Assembly (NCBI RefSeq): GCF_000013365.1
Contig: NC_007778.1
Span: 5,194,501-5,258,500, forward strand
DNA length: 64,000 bases
Source of the DNA: Rhodopseudomonas palustris HaA2
Lineage (GTDB): Bacteria; Pseudomonadota; Alphaproteobacteria; Rhizobiales; Xanthobacteraceae
Direction: 5' to 3'
Under the pieces are notes generated by a model. That model was not told where the DNA came from and searched no databases. It saw only the letters and a program-made list of their open reading frames with translations. The translations under genes and the position numbers were made by a program. Positions 3,011-44,297 of the stretch are shown here, one piece after another. How positions within the stretch are numbered: position 1 is the first letter of the stretch; every line of letters starts with the position of its first letter.

Positions 3011-3150
3011 CTCCCTCGCCCCGCTCTTCGCGGGGAGAGGGTTGGGGTGAGGGGCGACGCGAGCACTGATTCTCGACTGTGTGGAAACGCGCCCCTCACC
3101 CGGATCACCGCTTCGCGCTGATCCGACCTCTCCCCGCGCGCGGGGAGAGG
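3011..3150. repeat. Extragenic palindrome, family B, copy 1
   Basis: Long imperfect inverted repeat built from the motifs CTCGCCCCGCT...GCGGGGAGAGG, GGGGTGAGGGGCG, CGCCCCTCACCCGGATCACC and CCTCTCCCCGCGCGCGGGGAG. It lies between gst and the end of the FadJ-like gene. Related copies are at 37487-37626 and inside the helicase and ligase genes. Confidence 0.85.
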
Positions 3151-3161
3151 CAAGTAACGAC

Positions 3162-6795: not shown

Positions 6796-6878
6796 CGTCA
6801 TTGCGAGGAGCGATAGCGACGAAGCAATCCAGTCTTTGGGTGCGGCTTCTGGATTGCTTCGCTTCGCTCGCAATGACG
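6796..6878. repeat. Extragenic palindrome, family A, copy 2
   Basis: CGTCATTGCGAGGAGCG...GAAGCAATCCAG and its complement CTGGATTGCTTCGCTTCGC...GCAATGACG, between acyl-CoA dehydrogenase and thiolase genes. Confidence 0.85.
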
Positions 6879-6890
6879 CTTGGGGCTTGC

Positions 6891-15475: not shown

Positions 15476-16168
15476 TCAGCAGCAGCGCGACGCTGCGATG
15501 GCGTGGAGACGGTGGTCGCCGAGGACATGGGCGATGACCACGGCCGAGCCGAACAGCCTGGCGAAGGCTGCATCGCGGATGTTGAGCCCGCCCGCATAGG
15601 CGCCGAACGCCGGCATCACCATGCGGCTGCCGTCGCCGGCGAAGCAACGCCGCTCGACGCTGCGGCCGCGGCGGCTGACCCGCGCCTTGGGATGCAGATG
15701 GCCGGCGATTTCGCCGTGCGCCCCGGTCGGCTCGTGGCGGAAGATCACGCCGCCGAGCGCGACCTCGTCGGCGACGCAACCGCCGAGATCGGCGGGCAGC
15801 GCCGGATCATGGTTGCCGGCGATCCAGATCCAGTCACGGCCCGCCTGCAGGGCCATCAGGATATCGCGATTGCCGCCTGACAGCCGGCCATGCGCGTCGC
15901 GATCGTGAAAACTGTCGCCGAGCGCGATCACCGTGCGCGGATTGAAACGCGTGACCACGGCGCCGAGCCGGCCCAGCGTGGCGACGGTATCGTAAGGCGG
16001 CAGCAGCACGCCGCGCATCGCATAGCTCGAGCCTTTTTCGAGATGCAGGTCGGAGACGACCAGCAGCCGCTCGCGCTCCCAATACAGCACGCCGGACAGA
16101 TCGGCGGCGAACGTAGCGCCGGCAATCGATACTGCGGAGTCGTTGATCGGAAGCGGATCAGCAAACAT
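15476..16168 (-). CDS. pdeM: Ligase-associated DNA-damage-response phosphoesterase PdeM
   Basis: 230 residues. All calcineurin-type metallophosphoesterase motifs are present: SDLHLEKGSSYAMRG (metal Asp/His), ALGDSFHDRDAHGR, AGNHDP and EIAGHLHPK, giving a two-metal nuclease or phosphoesterase site. This is the phosphoesterase that accompanies the Lhr helicase, exonuclease and ligase of the bacterial ligase-associated repair set. The ATG at 16168 (MFADPLPINDS) is chosen; an in-frame ATG at 16207 would add 13 residues encoded by a family D palindrome, an artefact of that repeat. The palindrome abuts the start codon and no good Shine-Dalgarno is visible, so translation may depend on the repeat sequence. 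It follows lhr on the same strand by 113 bp. Confidence 0.92.
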   Translation of the reverse strand: MFADPLPINDSAVSIAGATFAADLSGVLYWERERLLVVSDLHLEKGSSYAMRGVLLPPYDTVATLGRLGAVVTRFNPRTVIALGDSFHDRDAHGRLSGGNRDILMALQAGRDWIWIAGNHDPALPADLGGCVADEVALGGVIFRHEPTGAHGEIAGHLHPKARVSRRGRSVERRCFAGDGSRMVMPAFGAYAGGLNIRDAAFARLFGSAVVIAHVLGDHRLHAIAASRCC

Positions 16169-16169
16169 C

Positions 16170-16255
16170 GTCATGGCCGGGCTCGTCCCGGCCATCACGA
16201 TGGACACGGGGGGAAGCAGTGGTCGTGGATGCCCGGGACAAGCCCGGGCATGACG
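16170..16255. repeat. Extragenic palindrome, family D, abutting the pdeM start
   Basis: TCATGGCCGGGCTCGTCCCG followed by a related complement GCCCGGGACAAGCCCGGGCATGAC. It fills most of the lhr-pdeM gap and ends one base from the pdeM ATG. Confidence 0.82.
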
Positions 16256-16281: not shown

Positions 16282-19095
16282 CTAGCGACGCTCGGTCGCC
16301 TCGCGCACCAGTTCGTCGGCCGCGTCGGCGAGCAGTTCGTCGGAAGCCTCGCCGTACACGGCTTCGCGGCCGATTTCCAGCATCACCGGCACCGCCAGCG
16401 GCGACACGCGATCGAGTTCCTTGTGGACGATGCGCCCCTTGATTCGCGTCAGCATATCACTGAGGCGCCGTAAATCGAGCAGCCCCGTGGCGGCGTCGGC
16501 GCGCGCGGCGCGCAACAGCACGTGGTCGGGCTGGTGCTTGTTGAGCACGTCGTAGACCAGGTCAGTCGAGAACAGCACCTGGCGCCGCGATTTTTCCTCG
16601 CCGGCGAAGCGCCGCGCGATCAGCCCGGAGATGATCGCCGCGTAACGGAAGGTGCGTTTCATCAGCGCCGATTCGGCGAGCCAGGCTTCGAGATCGTCGC
16701 CGAGCATATCCGGATCGAACAGCGCGTCGAGATCGAGCCGCCCCTGCCGGATCATGTGAGACGTATCGCCGAGCCCCCACACTGCGAGCGCATATTCGTT
16801 GGCGACGAAGCCGAGCGGCCGGGCGCGGGCACGCTCCAGCCGCCGCGTCAGCAGCATGCCGAGCGTCTGATGCGCCAGCCGTCCTTCGAACGGGTAGCAG
16901 ACCAGGTAGTATTTGGCGGCGCGCGGAAAGGTTTCGACCACGAGCTCGCTGCGGCCCGGCACGCGCGACGCCTTGCTCTGCAGCGCGAGCCAGTCACGCA
17001 CTTGATCAGGAAGCCCCTTCCACGCCTGCTTGTCGGCGAGCAACCCGCGGACGCGTTCGGCCAGATAGGTCGAGAGCGGGAACTTGCCGCCCATATAGGA
17101 CGGCACCCGCGCATCCTTGTCGTGCGCGCGGGAGACGTAGACCTGATCCTCCATCAGCGCCTCGTAGCGCACCACCTCGCCGCCGAACACGAAGGTGTCG
17201 CCCGGCGTCAGGCCCTCGATGAAGTACTCCTCGATCTGGCCGAGCATCCGGCCGCCGCGCGCGATCGCGCCGGTATGGCCGCCGCCTTTGGACTTCGCCG
17301 AGCGCACCAGCTTCACCTTCAGCATCGCCTCCTCGACGATGGTGCCGACATTCAGGCGATAAGCCTGCCGCACCTTCGGATTGGCGACGCGCCACTTGCC
17401 CTGCTTGTCCTGCCTGATGCGCGCGAAGCGCTCATAGCTCTTCAGCGCGTAGCCGCCGGTGGCGACGAAATCGAGCGTATCGTCGAAATCAGCCCGGCTG
17501 AGATCGGCGTAAGGTGCCGCACTCCGCACTTCCTTGTACAATTCATCTGCGACGAACGGCTCGCCGCAGGCGCAGCCGAGGATGTGCTGCGCCAGCACGT
17601 CGAGCGCGCCGGTGCGTTGCGGCGGGGTGTCCTGCGCGTTTTCGGCGACCGCATCGATTGCGGCAGCGCATTCCAGCACTTCGAAGCGATTGGCCGGCAC
17701 CAGCACCGCGCGCGACGCCTCGTCGAGCCGGTGATTGGCGCGGCCGATCCGCTGCATCAGCCGCGACGAGCCTTTCGGCGCGCCGACATTGACGACCAGG
17801 TCGATGTCGCCCCAGTCGATGCCGAGATCGAGCGAAGAGGTGCACACCACGCCACGCAGCCGCCCCGCCGCCATCGCGTCCTCGACCTTGCGGCGCTGCG
17901 CGACGTCGAGCGAACCGTGATGCAGCGCGATCGCCAGATTGTCGTCGTTCATGCGCCAGAGTTCCTGGAACAGCATCTCCGCCTGGCTGCGGGTGTTGAC
18001 GAACACCAGCGTGGTGGTGTTGCGCCGGATCAGGTCGTAGATCTCGGCCAGCGCATGGCGCGCCGAATGCCCGGCCCAGGGCAGCCGCTCCTTGGTGTCG
18101 AGCATCTCGACGATCGGCTGCGCCGCGCCGCGGGCGACGACGATGTCGGCCTGTTCTCCCTCTCCCCTTGTGGGAGAGGGCCGGGGTGAGGGGTAGGCTG
18201 CGGGCTCGGCGCCCGCGCTCGCCCCCTCACCCGTCGCCTCACTGCGTTCGGCGCCACCCTCTCCCACAAGGGGAGAGGGAACGAACGGCTGCGGCACCAG
18301 GAAGCGCGCGAGCTCATCGGGATCGGCGACCGTCGCCGATAGCCCGGTGGCGCGAAGCTGCGGCGCGATCCGCCAAAGCCGCGCCAGCCCCAGCGACAGC
18401 AGATCGCCGCGCTTCGAGGTCACCAGCGCGTGCAGCTCGTCGAGCACGATGCGCTGCAGGGAACCGAACAGATAGGGCGCATCGTCGGACGCCAGCAGCA
18501 GCGCGAGCTGTTCCGGCGTGGTCAGCAGAATGTCCGGCGGATATTTGCGTTGCCTCGCGCGTCGCGACACCGGCGTGTCGCCGGTGCGGGTCTCGACCCG
18601 GATCGGCAGATTCATCTGCGCGATCGGCGCTTCGAGATTGCGGGCGATGTCGACCGCCAGCGCCTTCAGCGGCGAAATATACAGTGTATGGAGACCGCGG
18701 CTCGAACCCTCTCCCCGCGCGCGGGGAGAGGGTGGCGCGGCAAGCGCAGCTCGGCGCGCCGGGTGAGGGGGCGCCTCGGCGCACACAGCTGCCCCGGCAA
18801 TGGGCAACTCATCAGCCCCCTCACCCGACTTGCCGGCTACGCCAGCTAGTCGACCTCTCCCCGCAATCGGGGAGAGGTTAGGCGCCGCCTCGCTCAACTC
18901 CACCAGCGTCGGCAAAAAGCCCGCCAGTGTCTTGCCGGCGCCGGTCGGGGCGATCAGCAGCGCCGAGCGTTGCGCGCGCGCCTGTCGCAGCAACGCTAGC
19001 TGGTGCGCGCGCGGCGTCCAGCCGCGTGCGGCGAACCAGTGCCGAAAGCGGTCGGGCAGCAGATCGAGGGGAGCGTCGGAATCGGCGATGGTCAC
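16282..19095 (-). CDS. lhr: Ligase-associated Lhr-family DEXH helicase, with two in-frame palindrome insertions
   Basis: 937 residues, an ATP-driven 3'-5' DNA translocase/helicase of the Lhr-core type. Motif I is APTGAGKTLAG (50-59), the DEXH box DELH is at 219-222, motif III SATVAD near 254 and motif VI QRIGRANHR near 448. The Lhr winged-helix and C-terminal domains follow (FIEGLTPGDTFVFGGEVVR and on). It is longer than expected because residues about 71-133 and 270-315 are low-complexity Pro/Gly/Ala/Arg segments encoded by family B palindromes. Both lie between conserved helicase blocks and keep the frame. The start is a GTG at 19095. It precedes pdeM; the partner exonuclease and ligase genes are 3 kb away on the other strand. 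Activity of the expanded protein is not known. Confidence 0.93.
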   Translation of the reverse strand: MTIADSDAPLDLLPDRFRHWFAARGWTPRAHQLALLRQARAQRSALLIAPTGAGKTLAGFLPTLVELSEAAPNLSPIAGRGRLAGVAGKSGEGADELPIAGAAVCAEAPPHPARRAALAAPPSPRARGEGSSRGLHTLYISPLKALAVDIARNLEAPIAQMNLPIRVETRTGDTPVSRRARQRKYPPDILLTTPEQLALLLASDDAPYLFGSLQRIVLDELHALVTSKRGDLLSLGLARLWRIAPQLRATGLSATVADPDELARFLVPQPFVPSPLVGEGGAERSEATGEGASAGAEPAAYPSPRPSPTRGEGEQADIVVARGAAQPIVEMLDTKERLPWAGHSARHALAEIYDLIRRNTTTLVFVNTRSQAEMLFQELWRMNDDNLAIALHHGSLDVAQRRKVEDAMAAGRLRGVVCTSSLDLGIDWGDIDLVVNVGAPKGSSRLMQRIGRANHRLDEASRAVLVPANRFEVLECAAAIDAVAENAQDTPPQRTGALDVLAQHILGCACGEPFVADELYKEVRSAAPYADLSRADFDDTLDFVATGGYALKSYERFARIRQDKQGKWRVANPKVRQAYRLNVGTIVEEAMLKVKLVRSAKSKGGGHTGAIARGGRMLGQIEEYFIEGLTPGDTFVFGGEVVRYEALMEDQVYVSRAHDKDARVPSYMGGKFPLSTYLAERVRGLLADKQAWKGLPDQVRDWLALQSKASRVPGRSELVVETFPRAAKYYLVCYPFEGRLAHQTLGMLLTRRLERARARPLGFVANEYALAVWGLGDTSHMIRQGRLDLDALFDPDMLGDDLEAWLAESALMKRTFRYAAIISGLIARRFAGEEKSRRQVLFSTDLVYDVLNKHQPDHVLLRAARADAATGLLDLRRLSDMLTRIKGRIVHKELDRVSPLAVPVMLEIGREAVYGEASDELLADAADELVREATERR
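18151..18288. repeat. Family B palindrome inserted in lhr (second insertion)
   Basis: CCCTCTCCCCTTGTGGGAGAG, GGCCGGGGTGAGGGG, CCCCTCACCCGTCGCCTCA and CTCCCACAAGGGGAGAGG form an imperfect inverted repeat entirely within the helicase reading frame. It encodes roughly residues 270-315, outside conserved motifs. Confidence 0.85.
18697..18885. repeat. Family B palindrome inserted in lhr (first insertion)
   Basis: CCCTCTCCCCGCGCGCGGGG, GCCGGGTGAGGGGGCGCCTC, CCCCTCACCCGACTTGCCGG and CCTCTCCCCGCAATCGGGGA sit inside the helicase gene between motif I and the conserved HTLYISPLKAL block, encoding about residues 71-133 with no stop or frameshift. Confidence 0.85.
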
Positions 19096-22317: not shown

Positions 22318-23373
22318 ATGTCGTCGATGCGCCCGCAAGACATCCTGATGCCCCAAGCCGAAGGCCTGTGCTGCAAGCCAGGGGGCTTCCACATCGACCC
22401 GGTGCGGCCGGTCGAACGGGCCGTGATCACGCATGGCCATTCCGACCACGCCCGGCCCGGCCACGGCGCGGTGCTGGCGACGCAGGAAACGCTCGACATG
22501 ATGCGGCTGCGCTACGGCGAAAATTTCGCCGGCAGCACGCAGGCGATCGGCTACGGCGAAACGATCCGGCTCGGCGAGACGACAGTGACCTTCCATCCGG
22601 CCGGCCACGTGCTCGGTTCGGCGCAGGTGGCGGTCGAATGCGGCGGCCTCCGGATCGTTGCCTCCGGCGACTACAAGGACGCGCCGGACCCGACCTGCAC
22701 GCCTTTCGAACTCGTCCGGTGCGACGTCTTCATCACCGAGGCGACCTTCGGGCTGCCGGTATTTCGCCATCCCGACGCAACCGGGGAAGTGCGCAAGCTG
22801 CTCGGATCCGTCGCGCTGTTTCCGGAGCGCGCACATCTGGTCGGCGCGTACTCGCTGGGCAAGGCGCAGCGGGTGATCGCACTGATCCGCGATGCCGGCT
22901 ATGATGCACCGATCTATCTGCACGGCGCGATGGAGAAGATCACGCGTTACTATGCCCAGCGCGGTTTGCCGCTCGGCGAGCTGCGGCCGGTCAAGGGGGT
23001 GAAGAAGGCCGAGCTCGCCGGCACCATCACGCTGGCGCCGCCGTCCGCGACGTCCGATCTGTGGACGCGGCGCTTCCCCGATCCGCTCACAGCCTTCGCC
23101 TCCGGCTGGATGCGGGTGCGCGCCCGCGCGAGGCAGCGCGGCGTCGAGCTGCCGCTGGTGATTTCCGACCACGCCGACTGGGACGGCCTGACCGCGACCA
23201 TCGCCGCAACGGGCGCCGGCGAAGTCTGGGTCACCCACGGCCAGGAAGACGCGCTGGTGCATTGGTGCCAGCGCAAGGGCCTCACCGCGCGCCCGCTCGA
23301 TCTGGTCGGCTACGGTGACGAAGACGAAGACGTCGGCCTGGCGGCGGGCGAGACCGAGGCCGCCGAGGCATGA
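22318..23373 (+). CDS. Ligase-associated DNA-damage-response exonuclease (MBL/beta-CASP fold)
   Basis: 351 residues. The metallo-beta-lactamase motif THGHSDH (His39, His41, Asp43, His44) and later metal ligands (HPAGHVLGSAQV; SGDYKDAPDPT; ISDHADWDG) place it with the exonuclease of the Lhr-exo-ligase set, which trims DNA ends. The start is one of several ATGs; 22318 is chosen, but 22327 or 22348 are possible because none has a clear Shine-Dalgarno. It overlaps the ligase gene by ATGA at 23370, showing tight coupling. Helicase and phosphoesterase partners are on the other strand 3-6 kb to the left. Confidence 0.92.
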   Translation: MSSMRPQDILMPQAEGLCCKPGGFHIDPVRPVERAVITHGHSDHARPGHGAVLATQETLDMMRLRYGENFAGSTQAIGYGETIRLGETTVTFHPAGHVLGSAQVAVECGGLRIVASGDYKDAPDPTCTPFELVRCDVFITEATFGLPVFRHPDATGEVRKLLGSVALFPERAHLVGAYSLGKAQRVIALIRDAGYDAPIYLHGAMEKITRYYAQRGLPLGELRPVKGVKKAELAGTITLAPPSATSDLWTRRFPDPLTAFASGWMRVRARARQRGVELPLVISDHADWDGLTATIAATGAGEVWVTHGQEDALVHWCQRKGLTARPLDLVGYGDEDEDVGLAAGETEAAEA

Positions 23374-25238
23374 ACCGGTTCGCCGAATTGCTCGACCGCC
23401 TCGCCTATGAGCCCGGCCGCAACAACAAGCTGCGGCTGATCACCAATTACTTCCGCGCCACCGAAGACCCCGACCGCGGCTATGCGCTGGCCGCGCTGAC
23501 CGGCGCATTGTCGTTTCGCCACGCCAAGCCCGGCCTGATCCGGACTCTGATCGCCGAACGCACCGATCCGGTGCTGTTCGGCCTGTCCTACGACTATGTC
23601 GGCGACCTGTCGGAGACGGTCGCGCTGATGTGGCCTGCGCCGCGAGGCCGAGCCTCCTCCCCTCCCCCTTGCGGGGAGGGAGCCTGCCCCGGACTTGATC
23701 CGGGGTCGGGGGTGGGGGTCGACAACGGGAGCTTTTCCTCGGCGCACCCTCACCCCACCCCTCTCCCGCAAGCGGGAGAGGGAGCGCGCAGTCCGTCGGG
23801 TGAACACACCTCTCCACTATCCGACGCAGCAACGAAAGCTGGCCACAACAACCCGCCGCCGCCGACGCTCACCGACATCGTCACCACGCTGCACAGCCTC
23901 GGCAAGGCCGAGCTGCCGGCGCAGCTTGCGCGCTGGCTCGACGAACTCGACGAGACCGGACGCTGGGCGTTGTTGAAGCTCGTCACGGGCGGCCTGCGGA
24001 TCGGCATCTCGGCGCGCCTCGCAAAGACCGCTGCCGCAGCGCTCGGCGATAAGGATCCGCACGACGTCGAACTGGTCTGGCCCGGGCTCGAGGCGCCCTA
24101 TCTCGACTTGTTCGCCTGGCTCGACGGCCGCGGCCCGCAGCCGGTCAACCGCGATCCGGCGCCGTTCCGCCCGGTGATGCTGGCGCATGCGGTCGAGGAC
24201 GCCGACTTCGAGGCCATGACCCCGGCCGACTACATCGCCGAATGGAAATGGGACGGCATCCGCGTCCAGGCGGTGAGCGGCATCGGCGACGACGGCGAAA
24301 CCGTGGTGCGGCTGTATTCGCGCAGCGGCGAGGACATCACCATGAGCTTCCCGGACCTGTTGCCATCGCTGCGGCTGCCCGGCGCGATCGACGGCGAACT
24401 CCTGGTGCTGCGCGAAGGCCGGGTGCAGTCGTTCAACGTGCTGCAGCAACGGCTCAACCGCAAATCGGTGACGCCGAAGCTGATCAAGGAGTATCCGATT
24501 CATCTGCGCGCCTACGACCTGCTCGGCGACGGCGACGCGGATCTGCGGATACAGCCCTTCGTCGATCGACGTGCGCGGCTCGAGCGCTTCATCGCACGGC
24601 TCGACGACCCCAGAGTCGATCTTTCGCCGACGGTCGCGTTCGACGATTGGGACGGCTTGCGGGCGGCGCGGCGCGATCCGGCCAGCGCCGGCGCCGGCCT
24701 CGACGCCGACGCGGTCGAGGGCGTGATGCTGAAGCGGCGCGACGCGCTGTATCTGCCCGGCCGGCCGAAAGGCCAGTGGTGGAAGTGGAAGCACGACCCG
24801 CACATCATCGACGCGGTGCTGATGTACGCCCAGCGTGGCCACGGCAAGCGCTCGTCTTATTACTCCGACTACACTTTCGGGGTCTGGACTGAAGGCGACG
24901 ACGGCGACCAGCTCGTTCCGGTCGGCAAAGCCTATTTCGGCTTCACCGACGAGGAGCTGCTGCAGATCGACCGCTTCGTCCGCCGCAACACCACCGAGAA
25001 ATTCGGCCCGGTCCGCCATGTCGTGCACGAGCCCGACCAGGGCCTGGTGCTGGAAGTCGCGTTCGAGGGGCTGCAACGCTCGCCGCGGCACAAGTCCGGC
25101 GTGGCGATGCGGTTTCCGCGAATCAGCCGGCTGCGCTGGGACAAGCCGCCGCGCGACGCCGACCGGCTGGCGACGCTGGAACGGATGCTGAAGGCCGACA
25201 CCGCCGGCCCCGAAAAAGCCGCCCCGAGCAGCCATTGA
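23370..25238 (+). CDS. ATP-dependent DNA ligase of the ligase-associated repair module, with in-frame palindrome insertion
   Basis: 622 residues. It seals nicks through a ligase-adenylate: Lys293 in EWKWDGIRVQ is the adenylated lysine. An N-terminal DNA-binding domain covers about 1-260. The nucleotidyltransferase motifs (LYSRSGEDI, DGELLVL, EGVMLKRRDALYLPG, QWWKWK) and an OB domain follow. Residues about 91-155 (PRGRASSPPPCGEG... region) are low-complexity and encoded by a family B palindrome within the N-terminal domain, after ETVALMWP and before the native LTDIVTTLHSLGKAEL block. It is translationally coupled to the exonuclease. Such ligases usually have about 530-570 residues, so the extra length fits the insertion. 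Confidence 0.94.
   Translation: MNRFAELLDRLAYEPGRNNKLRLITNYFRATEDPDRGYALAALTGALSFRHAKPGLIRTLIAERTDPVLFGLSYDYVGDLSETVALMWPAPRGRASSPPPCGEGACPGLDPGSGVGVDNGSFSSAHPHPTPLPQAGEGARSPSGEHTSPLSDAATKAGHNNPPPPTLTDIVTTLHSLGKAELPAQLARWLDELDETGRWALLKLVTGGLRIGISARLAKTAAAALGDKDPHDVELVWPGLEAPYLDLFAWLDGRGPQPVNRDPAPFRPVMLAHAVEDADFEAMTPADYIAEWKWDGIRVQAVSGIGDDGETVVRLYSRSGEDITMSFPDLLPSLRLPGAIDGELLVLREGRVQSFNVLQQRLNRKSVTPKLIKEYPIHLRAYDLLGDGDADLRIQPFVDRRARLERFIARLDDPRVDLSPTVAFDDWDGLRAARRDPASAGAGLDADAVEGVMLKRRDALYLPGRPKGQWWKWKHDPHIIDAVLMYAQRGHGKRSSYYSDYTFGVWTEGDDGDQLVPVGKAYFGFTDEELLQIDRFVRRNTTEKFGPVRHVVHEPDQGLVLEVAFEGLQRSPRHKSGVAMRFPRISRLRWDKPPRDADRLATLERMLKADTAGPEKAAPSSH
23640..23835. repeat. Family B palindrome inserted in the DNA ligase gene
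   Basis: CTCCCCTCCCCCTTGCGGGG, GGGGTCGGGGGTGGGGGTCG, CTCACCCCACCCCTCTCCCG and CAAGCGGGAGAGGG form an imperfect inverted repeat inside the ligase frame, encoding about residues 91-155 without a stop. It carries an extra ACTTGATCCGGGGTCGG segment typical of another subfamily arrangement. Confidence 0.82.
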
Positions 25239-27993: not shown

Positions 27994-28728
27994 ATGCAAC
28001 TGCGATTTGTCGGCTGTGGCGATGCGCTCGGCTCCGGCGGCCGGCTCAACACCTGCTTCCACGTCGCGGGAGAGCGCGTCAACTTCCTGATCGACTGCGG
28101 CGCGACATCGTTGCCCGCGCTGAAGCGCTACGGCATTTCGCGCGATGCGCTCGACCTGGTGCTGATCACCCACTTTCACGGCGACCATTTCGGTGGCCTG
28201 CCGTTTCTGCTGCTCGATGCGAAATCCGCCAAGCGCAAGCGACCGCTGGTGATCGCCGGGCCGCCCGGCATCGACATCCGCCTGACGCGGGTGATGGAGG
28301 CGCTGTTCGAACATTCCTCGGCGACCCAGCCGACGTTCGATCTGCAGGTGATCGCGCTCGACCCGACCGTGCCGCGGACCTTCGGCGCAGTGACGGCGAC
28401 GCCGTTTCCGGTGATCCACGGCGATTCCGGCGGGCCATTCTATGCCTATCGCATCGAAGCCGAAGGCCGCACGCTGGCCTATAGCGGCGACACGCAATGG
28501 ACCGATACGCTGGTCGCCGCGGCGCACGACGCCGATCTGTTCATCGCCGAGGCCTACACCTACGACCGCAATGTGAAGAACCATCTCAGCCTGAAGGCGC
28601 TCGAGACCCACCTGCCCGAGATCAATCCGAAGCGGCTGATCCTCACCCATATGGGCGACGATGTGCTGCACAAGCTCGACACCGTCCCGCATATGGCCGC
28701 GAGCGACGGACTGATCGTGGAGTTGTAG
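27994..28728 (+). CDS. MBL-fold metal-dependent hydrolase (RNase Z-like)
   Basis: 244 residues. The metallo-beta-lactamase signature THFHGDHFGG, the late ligands FPVIHGDSG and YSGDTQWTD, and a final His in LILTHMGDD form a complete two-metal site. Overall shape resembles the RNase Z/PhnP-like group, but lacks an obvious exosite arm, so it is more likely a small-molecule phosphodiesterase or hydrolase than tRNase Z. The ATG at 27994 follows GAGGGA. It converges on pyrD across a family E palindrome. No operon partner. Confidence 0.88.
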   Translation: MQLRFVGCGDALGSGGRLNTCFHVAGERVNFLIDCGATSLPALKRYGISRDALDLVLITHFHGDHFGGLPFLLLDAKSAKRKRPLVIAGPPGIDIRLTRVMEALFEHSSATQPTFDLQVIALDPTVPRTFGAVTATPFPVIHGDSGGPFYAYRIEAEGRTLAYSGDTQWTDTLVAAAHDADLFIAEAYTYDRNVKNHLSLKALETHLPEINPKRLILTHMGDDVLHKLDTVPHMAASDGLIVEL

Positions 28729-28824
28729 TCATTCCGGGGCGCGCCGCAGGCGCGAACCCGGAATCTCGAGATGCTCTGCTCGTATCAGACTCCGGGTTCG
28801 CCGCTCCGCGGCGCCCCGGAATGA
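28729..28824. repeat. Extragenic palindrome, family E
   Basis: TCATTCCGGGGCGCGCCGCA with inner AACCCGGAATCT, and the complement AGACTCCGGGTTCGC...GGCGCCCCGGAATGA. It fills the gap between the convergent MBL and pyrD genes, where it may act as a bidirectional terminator. Confidence 0.85.
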
Positions 28825-28841
28825 CGACGATCTGACAGCCC

Positions 28842-37486: not shown

Positions 37487-37626
37487 CTCCCTCGCCCCGC
37501 TCTTGCGGGGAGAGGGGTGGGGTGAGGGGCGACGCGCGTCGCGAACTCTCGACCTTGTCGAGACGCCCCCTCACCCGGATCACCGCTACGCGGTGATCCG
37601 GCCTCTCCCCGCGAGCGGGGAGAGGT
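37487..37626. repeat. Extragenic palindrome, family B, copy 2
   Basis: CTCCCTCGCCCCGCTCTTGC, GGGGAGAGGGGTGGGGTGAG, CGCCCCCTCACCCGGATCAC and GGCCTCTCCCCGCGAGCGGG; nearly the same layout as 3011-3150, between the convergent aminotransferase and binding-protein genes. Confidence 0.87.
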
Positions 37627-37642
37627 TACTAAGCCCTCTTCT

Positions 37643-44214: not shown

Positions 44215-44297
44215 CGTCATTGCGTACGAAACGAAGCAATCCAGCGCCTCGGTACTCGGCGCTGCTGGATTGCTTCGTCGTTCGCTCTCGCAATAAG
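44215..44297. repeat. Extragenic palindrome, family A, copy 3
   Basis: CGTCATTGCGTACG...GAAGCAATCCAG with CTGGATTGCTTCGTCG...CTCGCAATAAG; the right outer arm is diverged relative to the other two copies. Confidence 0.83.

Follow-up and report, generated by a model that had tools for sequence, protein, structure and literature searches.

Dispersed hairpin repeats lying in frame within two loops of an Lhr-type helicase gene of Rhodopseudomonas palustris HaA2, and repeated filling of these loops among its relatives

In-frame palindromic repeats are already known in bacteria. Passages of one review (PMC10969869) describe the Rickettsia palindromic elements (RPEs) as palindromic repeats, some 150 bp long, that have entered unrelated genes without disturbing the reading frame. 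Repetitive extragenic palindromic (REP) sequences of the GTAG/CGTC class are hairpin repeats often occurring as inverted dimers, and the parts of Di Nocera 2013 (PMC3733652) that treat their intragenic copies list uvrABCD, recBCD, polymerase genes, a DNA ligase, RNA helicases and tRNA synthetases as hosts; the recB copies of two Xanthomonas species occupy nearly the same position, and repair genes are argued there to be unlikely chance targets of REPs. Furthermore, Br-REP1 and Br-REP2 are described, in passages of PMC5082802, as palindromic repeats common to Bradyrhizobium and Rhodopseudomonas and situated in 3' untranslated regions. The present analysis concerns a stretch of 64,000 nucleotides of R. 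palustris HaA2 (contig NC_007778.1, positions 5,194,501 to 5,258,500; hereafter the window), in which the gene of an Lhr-type ligase-associated helicase contains two palindromic repeats within its reading frame. We consider it likely that these are dispersed mobile hairpin repeats captured in frame in helicase loops and tolerated there, and that such capture has taken place repeatedly across relatives. As far as literature searches go, recurrent capture by the same loops in a single set of repair genes is a new form of a known phenomenon: the Lhr and ligase-associated gene set is unmentioned in the main-text parts of PMC3733652 on intragenic REPs, and the titles and abstracts of the open-access literature yielded no paper on repeats in Lhr or ligase-associated genes, Di Nocera 2013 covering repair genes at large. 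Among the papers listed for the letters of the repeat, none seemed related by title and abstract.

Both repeat segments are contained in a minus-strand open frame of 937 residues, the product of which matches the profile TIGR04121 (ligase-associated DEXH-box, Lhr type) at 1091 bits against a cut-off of 850 and harbours the Pfam domains DEAD, Helicase_C, WH_Lhr and DEAD_assoc; the ligase-associated neighbours, PdeM and the ligase, are present as well. Among the best 80 of 326 named homologues, close relatives are an R. palustris metagenome record (95%) and strain AAP120 (93%), both values being for best segments. A preliminary description of this DNA, made from the letters alone, had named an Lhr-type helicase with palindromic segments at 18151-18288 and 18697-18885, placed in frame between helicase motifs and sharing their building blocks with intergenic copies at 3011-3150 and 37487-37626. 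The profile and domain matches, the single open frame and the repeat blocks agree with it in all these respects, and the refined boundaries are given in Table 1. Insert 1 occupies the loop between motifs I and Ia (site 1), while insert 2 follows motif III and precedes the second RecA domain (site 2). Each consists of an outer hairpin at either end and an inner GGTGAGGGG / CCCCTCACC pair and, as the same description had proposed to check, folds as single-stranded DNA far better than dinucleotide shuffles (z-scores in Table 1). With the loop positions based on sequence alignment to a solved Lhr and on the helicase motifs, site 1 measures 60 residues here against 3 in chain 5v9x of the M. smegmatis Lhr (a gain of about 57). 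The distance from motif to motif is 81 residues, compared with 27 in the relative L019, which lacks the insert at this site (a gain of 54). Site 2 measures 81 residues against about 39 in 5v9x, a gain of about 42 with a weakly aligned far side. The added lengths proposed earlier, about 63 and about 46 residues, were therefore too high.

Table 1. Coordinates of the helicase, its inserts and related features (window positions unless a locus is named)
Feature	Position	Strand	Evidence or remark
Lhr-type ligase-associated DEXH-box helicase, host of two in-frame repeats	16282..19095	-	937 aa, GTG start, TIGR04121
Insert 1, inverted-dimer repeat, between motif I and motif Ia	18706..18878	-	sequence, fold z -6.4
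Insert 1 outer hairpin ACCCTCTCCCC-gcgcgc-GGGGAGAGGGT	18706..18733	n/a	palindrome class counted genome-wide
Insert 1 outer hairpin ACCTCTCCCCG-caat-CGGGGAGAGGT	18853..18878	n/a	repeat family D7
Insert 2, inverted-dimer repeat, one inner hairpin reduced	18158..18279	-	sequence, fold z -9.5
Insert 2 outer hairpin CCCTCTCCC-cttgt-GGGAGAGGG	18158..18180	n/a	sequence
Insert 2 outer hairpin CCCTCTCCC-acaag-GGGAGAGGG	18257..18279	n/a	sequence
Intergenic repeat copy	3011..3153	n/a	families D7, D12; blocks common to helicase inserts
Intergenic repeat copy	37487..37628	n/a	families D7, D12; blocks common to helicase inserts
Ligase-associated ATP-dependent DNA ligase, in-frame repeat carrier	23370..25238	+	TIGR04120 800 bits, cut-off 400; open reading frame
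In-frame G-rich repeat in ligase, ~41 aa within longer extra segment	23657..23780 (approximate)	n/a	survey, relatives
Ligase-associated PdeM endonuclease/phosphoesterase, adjoins helicase	15476..16207	-	TIGR04123 220 bits, cut-off 150
HrpB helicase gene, in-frame G-rich repeat insert	L329 1406-1516, HaA2 genome near 566.8 kb		survey
FAD_binding_4 protein, in-frame repeat	L424 1522-1620		sole survey host outside nucleic-acid enzymes and tRNA synthetases

The building blocks of the two inserts are dispersed over the HaA2 genome. The outer palindrome CTCTCCCC..GGGGAGAG, searched as the pattern CTCTCCCCN{2,14}GGGGAGAG, occurs 79 times and the half-element GGGGAGAGG-N{15,45}-GGTGAGGGG 68 times, against none for the reversed control in the first case and none for the control in the second, so the two segments are no chance resemblance. 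A looser half-element pattern gives 85 copies in HaA2 and, of 48 family genomes that were chosen, matches in 46; two further G-rich repeat types match in 30 and 31 of these genomes, and nine copies of another repeat type occur in HaA2 besides the half-elements. The repeats have a G+C content of about 75%. The letters of the inner hairpin vary while the pairing is kept (370 of 399 cells paired over 57 distinct units, against a mean of 246.1, a standard deviation of 9.7 and a maximum of 280 in 2000 shuffles). No Rfam family scores above its gathering score in the window. Copies are mostly arranged as inverted dimers, and this arrangement of hairpin units, together with intragenic copies in repair genes, recalls the REPs as presented in the cited parts of PMC3733652. 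The family nevertheless differs from them in lacking a consistent GTAG/CGTC tag (in the outer 8-nt flanks of 63 HaA2 clusters, GTAG is found in 0 and CGTC in 10) and a Y1 transposase in its own genome, as detailed below. Within the 57 distinct half-elements themselves, CGTC occurs in 12 and GTAG in 17, the latter away from where the inner part begins. The consensus sequences of Br-REP1 and Br-REP2, as printed in PMC5082802, are unlike the helicase repeat.

The same two loops are filled in many homologues of the helicase. Of 149 family genomes searched, 144 had a match at E <= 0.001, weak ones included that are probably other helicases. The rows analysed were the 110 best-scoring, the window's own among them and genome G120 the lowest-ranked; addition of the best 80 of 326 named loci, 15 of which share their core with an unnamed row, gave 190 rows. 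Extra segments of at least 15 residues are present at site 1 in 42 and at site 2 in 7 of the 110 rows, and in at most one row at each of the other listed places; with the named loci the figures become 59/190 and 13/190, three rows having such a segment at a place next to site 1 and no further listed place showing more than one. Both loops are by far the main insertion places in Lhr homologues. When segments of 36 nt or more were put to a motif test that drew its controls from the same gene, 50 of 112 at site 1 and 17 of 19 at site 2 were classed as repeat-like. On a tree of the distinct cores (FastTree, with open forks), on which the counts are minimum state changes and not gains, site 1 requires at least 25 changes and site 2 at least 8. 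Repeat-like segments are carried by 45 of 174 cores at site 1, perhaps a few too many because the call is that of the motif test and L108, L114 and L125 are weak by eye, and by 14 of 175 at site 2.

Turnover is also visible among close relatives. Within one five-member clade (support 100), L034 carries one repeat type, L033, L035 and L039 carry another at the same site, and L037 has none. At site 2, the Rhodopseudomonas-like rows comprise dimers (L017, L018, L019), single-hairpin remnants (L024, L129) and empty loops (L025, L155), while three rows named Mesorhizobium and Pseudaminobacter (L162, L168, L181), outside the family, have repeat-like site-2 inserts of other sequence; in the Rhizobium rows shown, four residues stand there. 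It had been proposed in the preliminary description that homologues be aligned and their gaps mapped, and that the same extra segments in species lacking the repeats would speak against an insertion. Repeat-free homologues prove to be without the segments, Rhizobium rows having mostly the four residues IPPG at site 1; the longer low-complexity site-1 loops of six rows (L111, L113, L115, L117, L121, L122) are of another kind. Beyond what that description contained, the same two loops are filled many times across the family, and the nearby ligase carries a related insert. As a separate observation, insert-free site-1 loops (for example, L037, L041 and L054) share the short recurring motif STGRxV, which is unseen in the Rhodopseudomonas inserts shown.

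The reading frame is kept across site 1. Motifs I and Ia could both be located in 182 rows, and in 180 of these a single open frame spans them. Of the two exceptions, L033 loses the frame at its insert and L131 has a run of unknown bases there; one of the two motifs was unfound in eight more rows, six of which start near the locus end. For six Rhodopseudomonas-like rows with an alignable insert (15 pairs), the ratio of nonsynonymous to synonymous substitution rates (dN/dS) is 0.07-0.17 in the core and 0.46-1.18 in the site-1 insert, 4 to 12 times the core value. The helicase core is under strong purifying selection, and selection on the site-1 insert, for which the ratio was computed, is much relaxed. 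As for the tolerated mobile repeat proposed in the preliminary description, in-frame tolerance is upheld by the repeat-free homologues without the segments, the conserved core and the relaxed site-1 insert, while mobility is what we infer.

Recurrent capture is also seen in the window's ligase and, among relatives, in UvrD/PcrA. The ligase gene lies about 4 kb from the helicase gene and its insert is of a related, G-rich type. Ligase matches are present in 124 of the 149 family genomes; 30 loci were examined, and the 26 that could be anchored, to which the counts are confined, comprise 19 repeat-bearing segments of 83-121 residues and seven bare segments of 45 residues, the site being filled or empty depending on the relative. 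UvrD/PcrA matches are present in 148 of the 149 genomes, and a variable segment directly before DDDQSIYGWRGA (L346 in HaA2, and L343-L372) contains about four kinds of repeat-like peptide in relatives. The stretch from QYLWLRLL to CCVGDDDQS measures 46-80 residues in 28 parsed loci, eight of which have at least six motif hits of the G-rich repeat, two further loci being added by eye; 17 of the remaining 20 have peptides that, on visual grouping, fall into three other recurrent types. In the UvrD insert of HaA2, 32-34 nt are found again at three further positions within 316 kb of the same genome's DNA, and this insert thus holds a different dispersed repeat. The UvrD-type proteins score 745 and 741, below the curated pcrA cut-off of 911, and are named from their Pfam UvrD domains.

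A survey of repeat clusters lying in frame within a coding frame, made with strict-pattern copies in six genomes, places these cases among the repeats as a whole. For HaA2 the copies were the 68 half-elements and the nine of another type; the coding test, for which 19 of the window's open frames served as training set, recovered 451 of 468 control positions. Eleven of 175 clusters are in frame inside a gene and the other 164 are not; the survey undercounts, since a decayed Lhr insert of G108 was missed and cluster L289 of G050 is a near miss, and its label for clusters at a locus edge mostly denotes that no frame is open through the cluster. HaA2 has 75 clusters (65 and 10), four of them in frame (Lhr twice, the window's ligase and HrpB); G050 has three of 33 (UvrD/PcrA type, GlyS, Lhr), G108 two of 23 (UvrD/PcrA type, IleS), G129 one of 13 (UvrD type), G120 one of 23 (an FAD-binding protein, probably metabolic) and G106 none of eight. 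The hosts are thus Lhr and the UvrD/PcrA type, three events each, and ligase, HrpB, GlyS (L303), IleS (L322) and the FAD-binding exception, one each. An earlier, stricter pass over HaA2 gave two of 63 clusters in frame, both in Lhr. Among nine clusters of G140, a genome outside the 175 total and chosen with an Lhr-derived pattern, one match is in Lhr; two further repeat patterns were derived from Lhr inserts, and the share of lhr, being biased by this, is unused as evidence of enrichment. In a metabolic control protein of similar size, a 3-hydroxyacyl-CoA dehydrogenase/enoyl-CoA hydratase of 737 residues, no gain of at least 15 residues (maximum 11) appears in 98 rows, counted as match length against query span and not from full alignments; these are 98 of 99 rows above 1000 bits, a second G122 copy being omitted. 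A single control gene is thin evidence, and the cluster survey is independent of it. By eye, the insert peptide of IleS closely resembles the ligase inserts of Rhodopseudomonas-like rows.

By placement, and not by sequence comparison, insertion in frame in unrelated genes (Lhr, ligase, HrpB; UvrD/PcrA, GlyS, IleS, the FAD-binding protein) recalls the RPEs. The present repeats differ from them in that most surveyed clusters do not form part of a gene's coding frame and no one reading frame is conserved, in that the same loop has been hit repeatedly in many genera, and in that the elements do not each carry an open reading frame for a conserved peptide. Likeness to bacterial miniature inverted-repeat transposable elements (MITEs) and to intragenic RU/ERIC sequences lies in small non-autonomous repeats able to add peptide in frame; neither a clear target-site duplication, by eye in five empty/filled alignments, nor, with PF01797 as the family searched, a parent transposon was identified here.

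In a course of events that would account for these observations, the repeats are non-autonomous mobile elements that are copied to new genomic positions. Most insertions inside genes would be lost, whereas those falling in frame in flexible surface loops could persist as disordered, translated extra peptide and might later erode or collapse to a single hairpin. Many such insertions are readable because a G+C content of about 75% opens several frames by composition. The over-representation of helicases, their partner ligase and tRNA synthetases would most simply reflect large multidomain enzymes with such loops. Several results weigh against this account. A search for PF01797 (Y1, RAYT-type), the one transposase family searched, gave no match in HaA2, with E. 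coli and Caulobacter among the positive controls; on this ground mobilisation by a RAYT of this genome was rejected. No target-site duplication is clear by eye in the five of eight empty/filled alignments that came out, the loops being divergent. The lhr gene of L033 (G066) is out of frame between motifs I and Ia at the repeat insert, through either a broken gene or a sequence error, and dN/dS of the insert is below 1 in 14 of 15 pairs, which makes weak constraint possible. Finally, 10 of the 11 in-frame events are in nucleic-acid enzymes or tRNA synthetases, hosts unlike a random protein sample, which makes loop tolerance alone a loose explanation.

The last of these points could also be read as a sign that the inserts are kept for use, whether in tuning the helicase, in binding a partner, or as an mRNA hairpin unwound by the encoded enzyme (autoregulation), with repair enzymes favoured. 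Such a role would fit hosts that, with one metabolic exception, are nucleic-acid enzymes or tRNA synthetases, the recurrence at the same Lhr loops and the same UvrD and ligase sites, and the argument in the consulted parts of Di Nocera 2013 (PMC3733652) that repair genes are unlikely fortuitous targets. It is nevertheless improbable, as the insert evolves at 4 to 12 times the dN/dS of the core, the same loop is occupied by inserts of differing sequence, many relatives have none, and hairpin pairs are lost in some copies (e.g. L025, L027). In a wider form, repair and RNA-handling enzymes would be favoured hosts, several unrelated repeat families being recaptured in fixed Lhr, ligase and UvrD/PcrA loops across Hyphomicrobiales with the enzymes themselves involved in the insertion route or in selection, for example by binding or unwinding hairpins in their own mRNA or in single-stranded DNA; we regard this as a tentative and rather unlikely extension. 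If true, these loops would serve specifically for capture and would tie the output of repair enzymes to the repeat load.

Retention of peptide-coding capacity by the repeat, as for Rickettsia RPEs, had been offered in the preliminary description as the other explanation of two insertions in one gene. The inserts are stop-free in the gene frame, and peptides such as PSPxxGEG recur. Yet 50 intergenic copies have 3.04 of six frames open against 3.98 (standard deviation 0.14) in composition-matched dinucleotide shuffles, and the outer hairpins are translated in two different frames, as LSP.. and PSP..; with open frames below the shuffle expectation, a kept coding capacity is unsupported and seems very improbable. 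Equally hard to credit is a single ancient insertion per site, passed down and subsequently altered or lost. In its favour, the site-1 inserts of Rhodopseudomonas and its close relatives can be aligned and probably descend from a common copy, and gain is not separable from loss in the state changes on the tree; against this stand the minimum numbers of those changes at both sites, the different repeat types in sister species and the repeat-like site-2 inserts of other sequence in the Mesorhizobium and Pseudaminobacter rows. An assembly artefact was rejected in view of in-frame inserts of differing sequence in many separate assemblies.

With repeated capture and tolerance of dispersed hairpin repeats as the preferred explanation, mobile repeats that persist within genes seem to do so preferentially in these enzymes, namely Lhr, its partner ligase and UvrD/PcrA. 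A preference of repeats for DNA-repair genes had previously been argued, not shown; in the present gene set, capture has been replicated many times at defined loops, loops with a full insert, a single hairpin or nothing occur in related bacteria, and the ligase and UvrD/PcrA behave like Lhr, all of which turns host preference into a countable and testable question. Moreover, the loops provide a natural series of insertions for studying the origin of new protein segments, and caution is advisable with family alignments and annotations of these enzymes, which contain repeat-derived stretches.

Two further repeats were observed in the window. A 42-nt inverted repeat, GTAGTCATTCCGGGG..CCCCGGAATGACGAC, at 28725-28828 resembles by eye the Br-REP2 consensus as published in PMC5082802. 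A separate dispersed repeat, CGTCATTGCG..GAAGCAATCCAG, is present at 2825-2856, 6849-6880 and 44215-44244.

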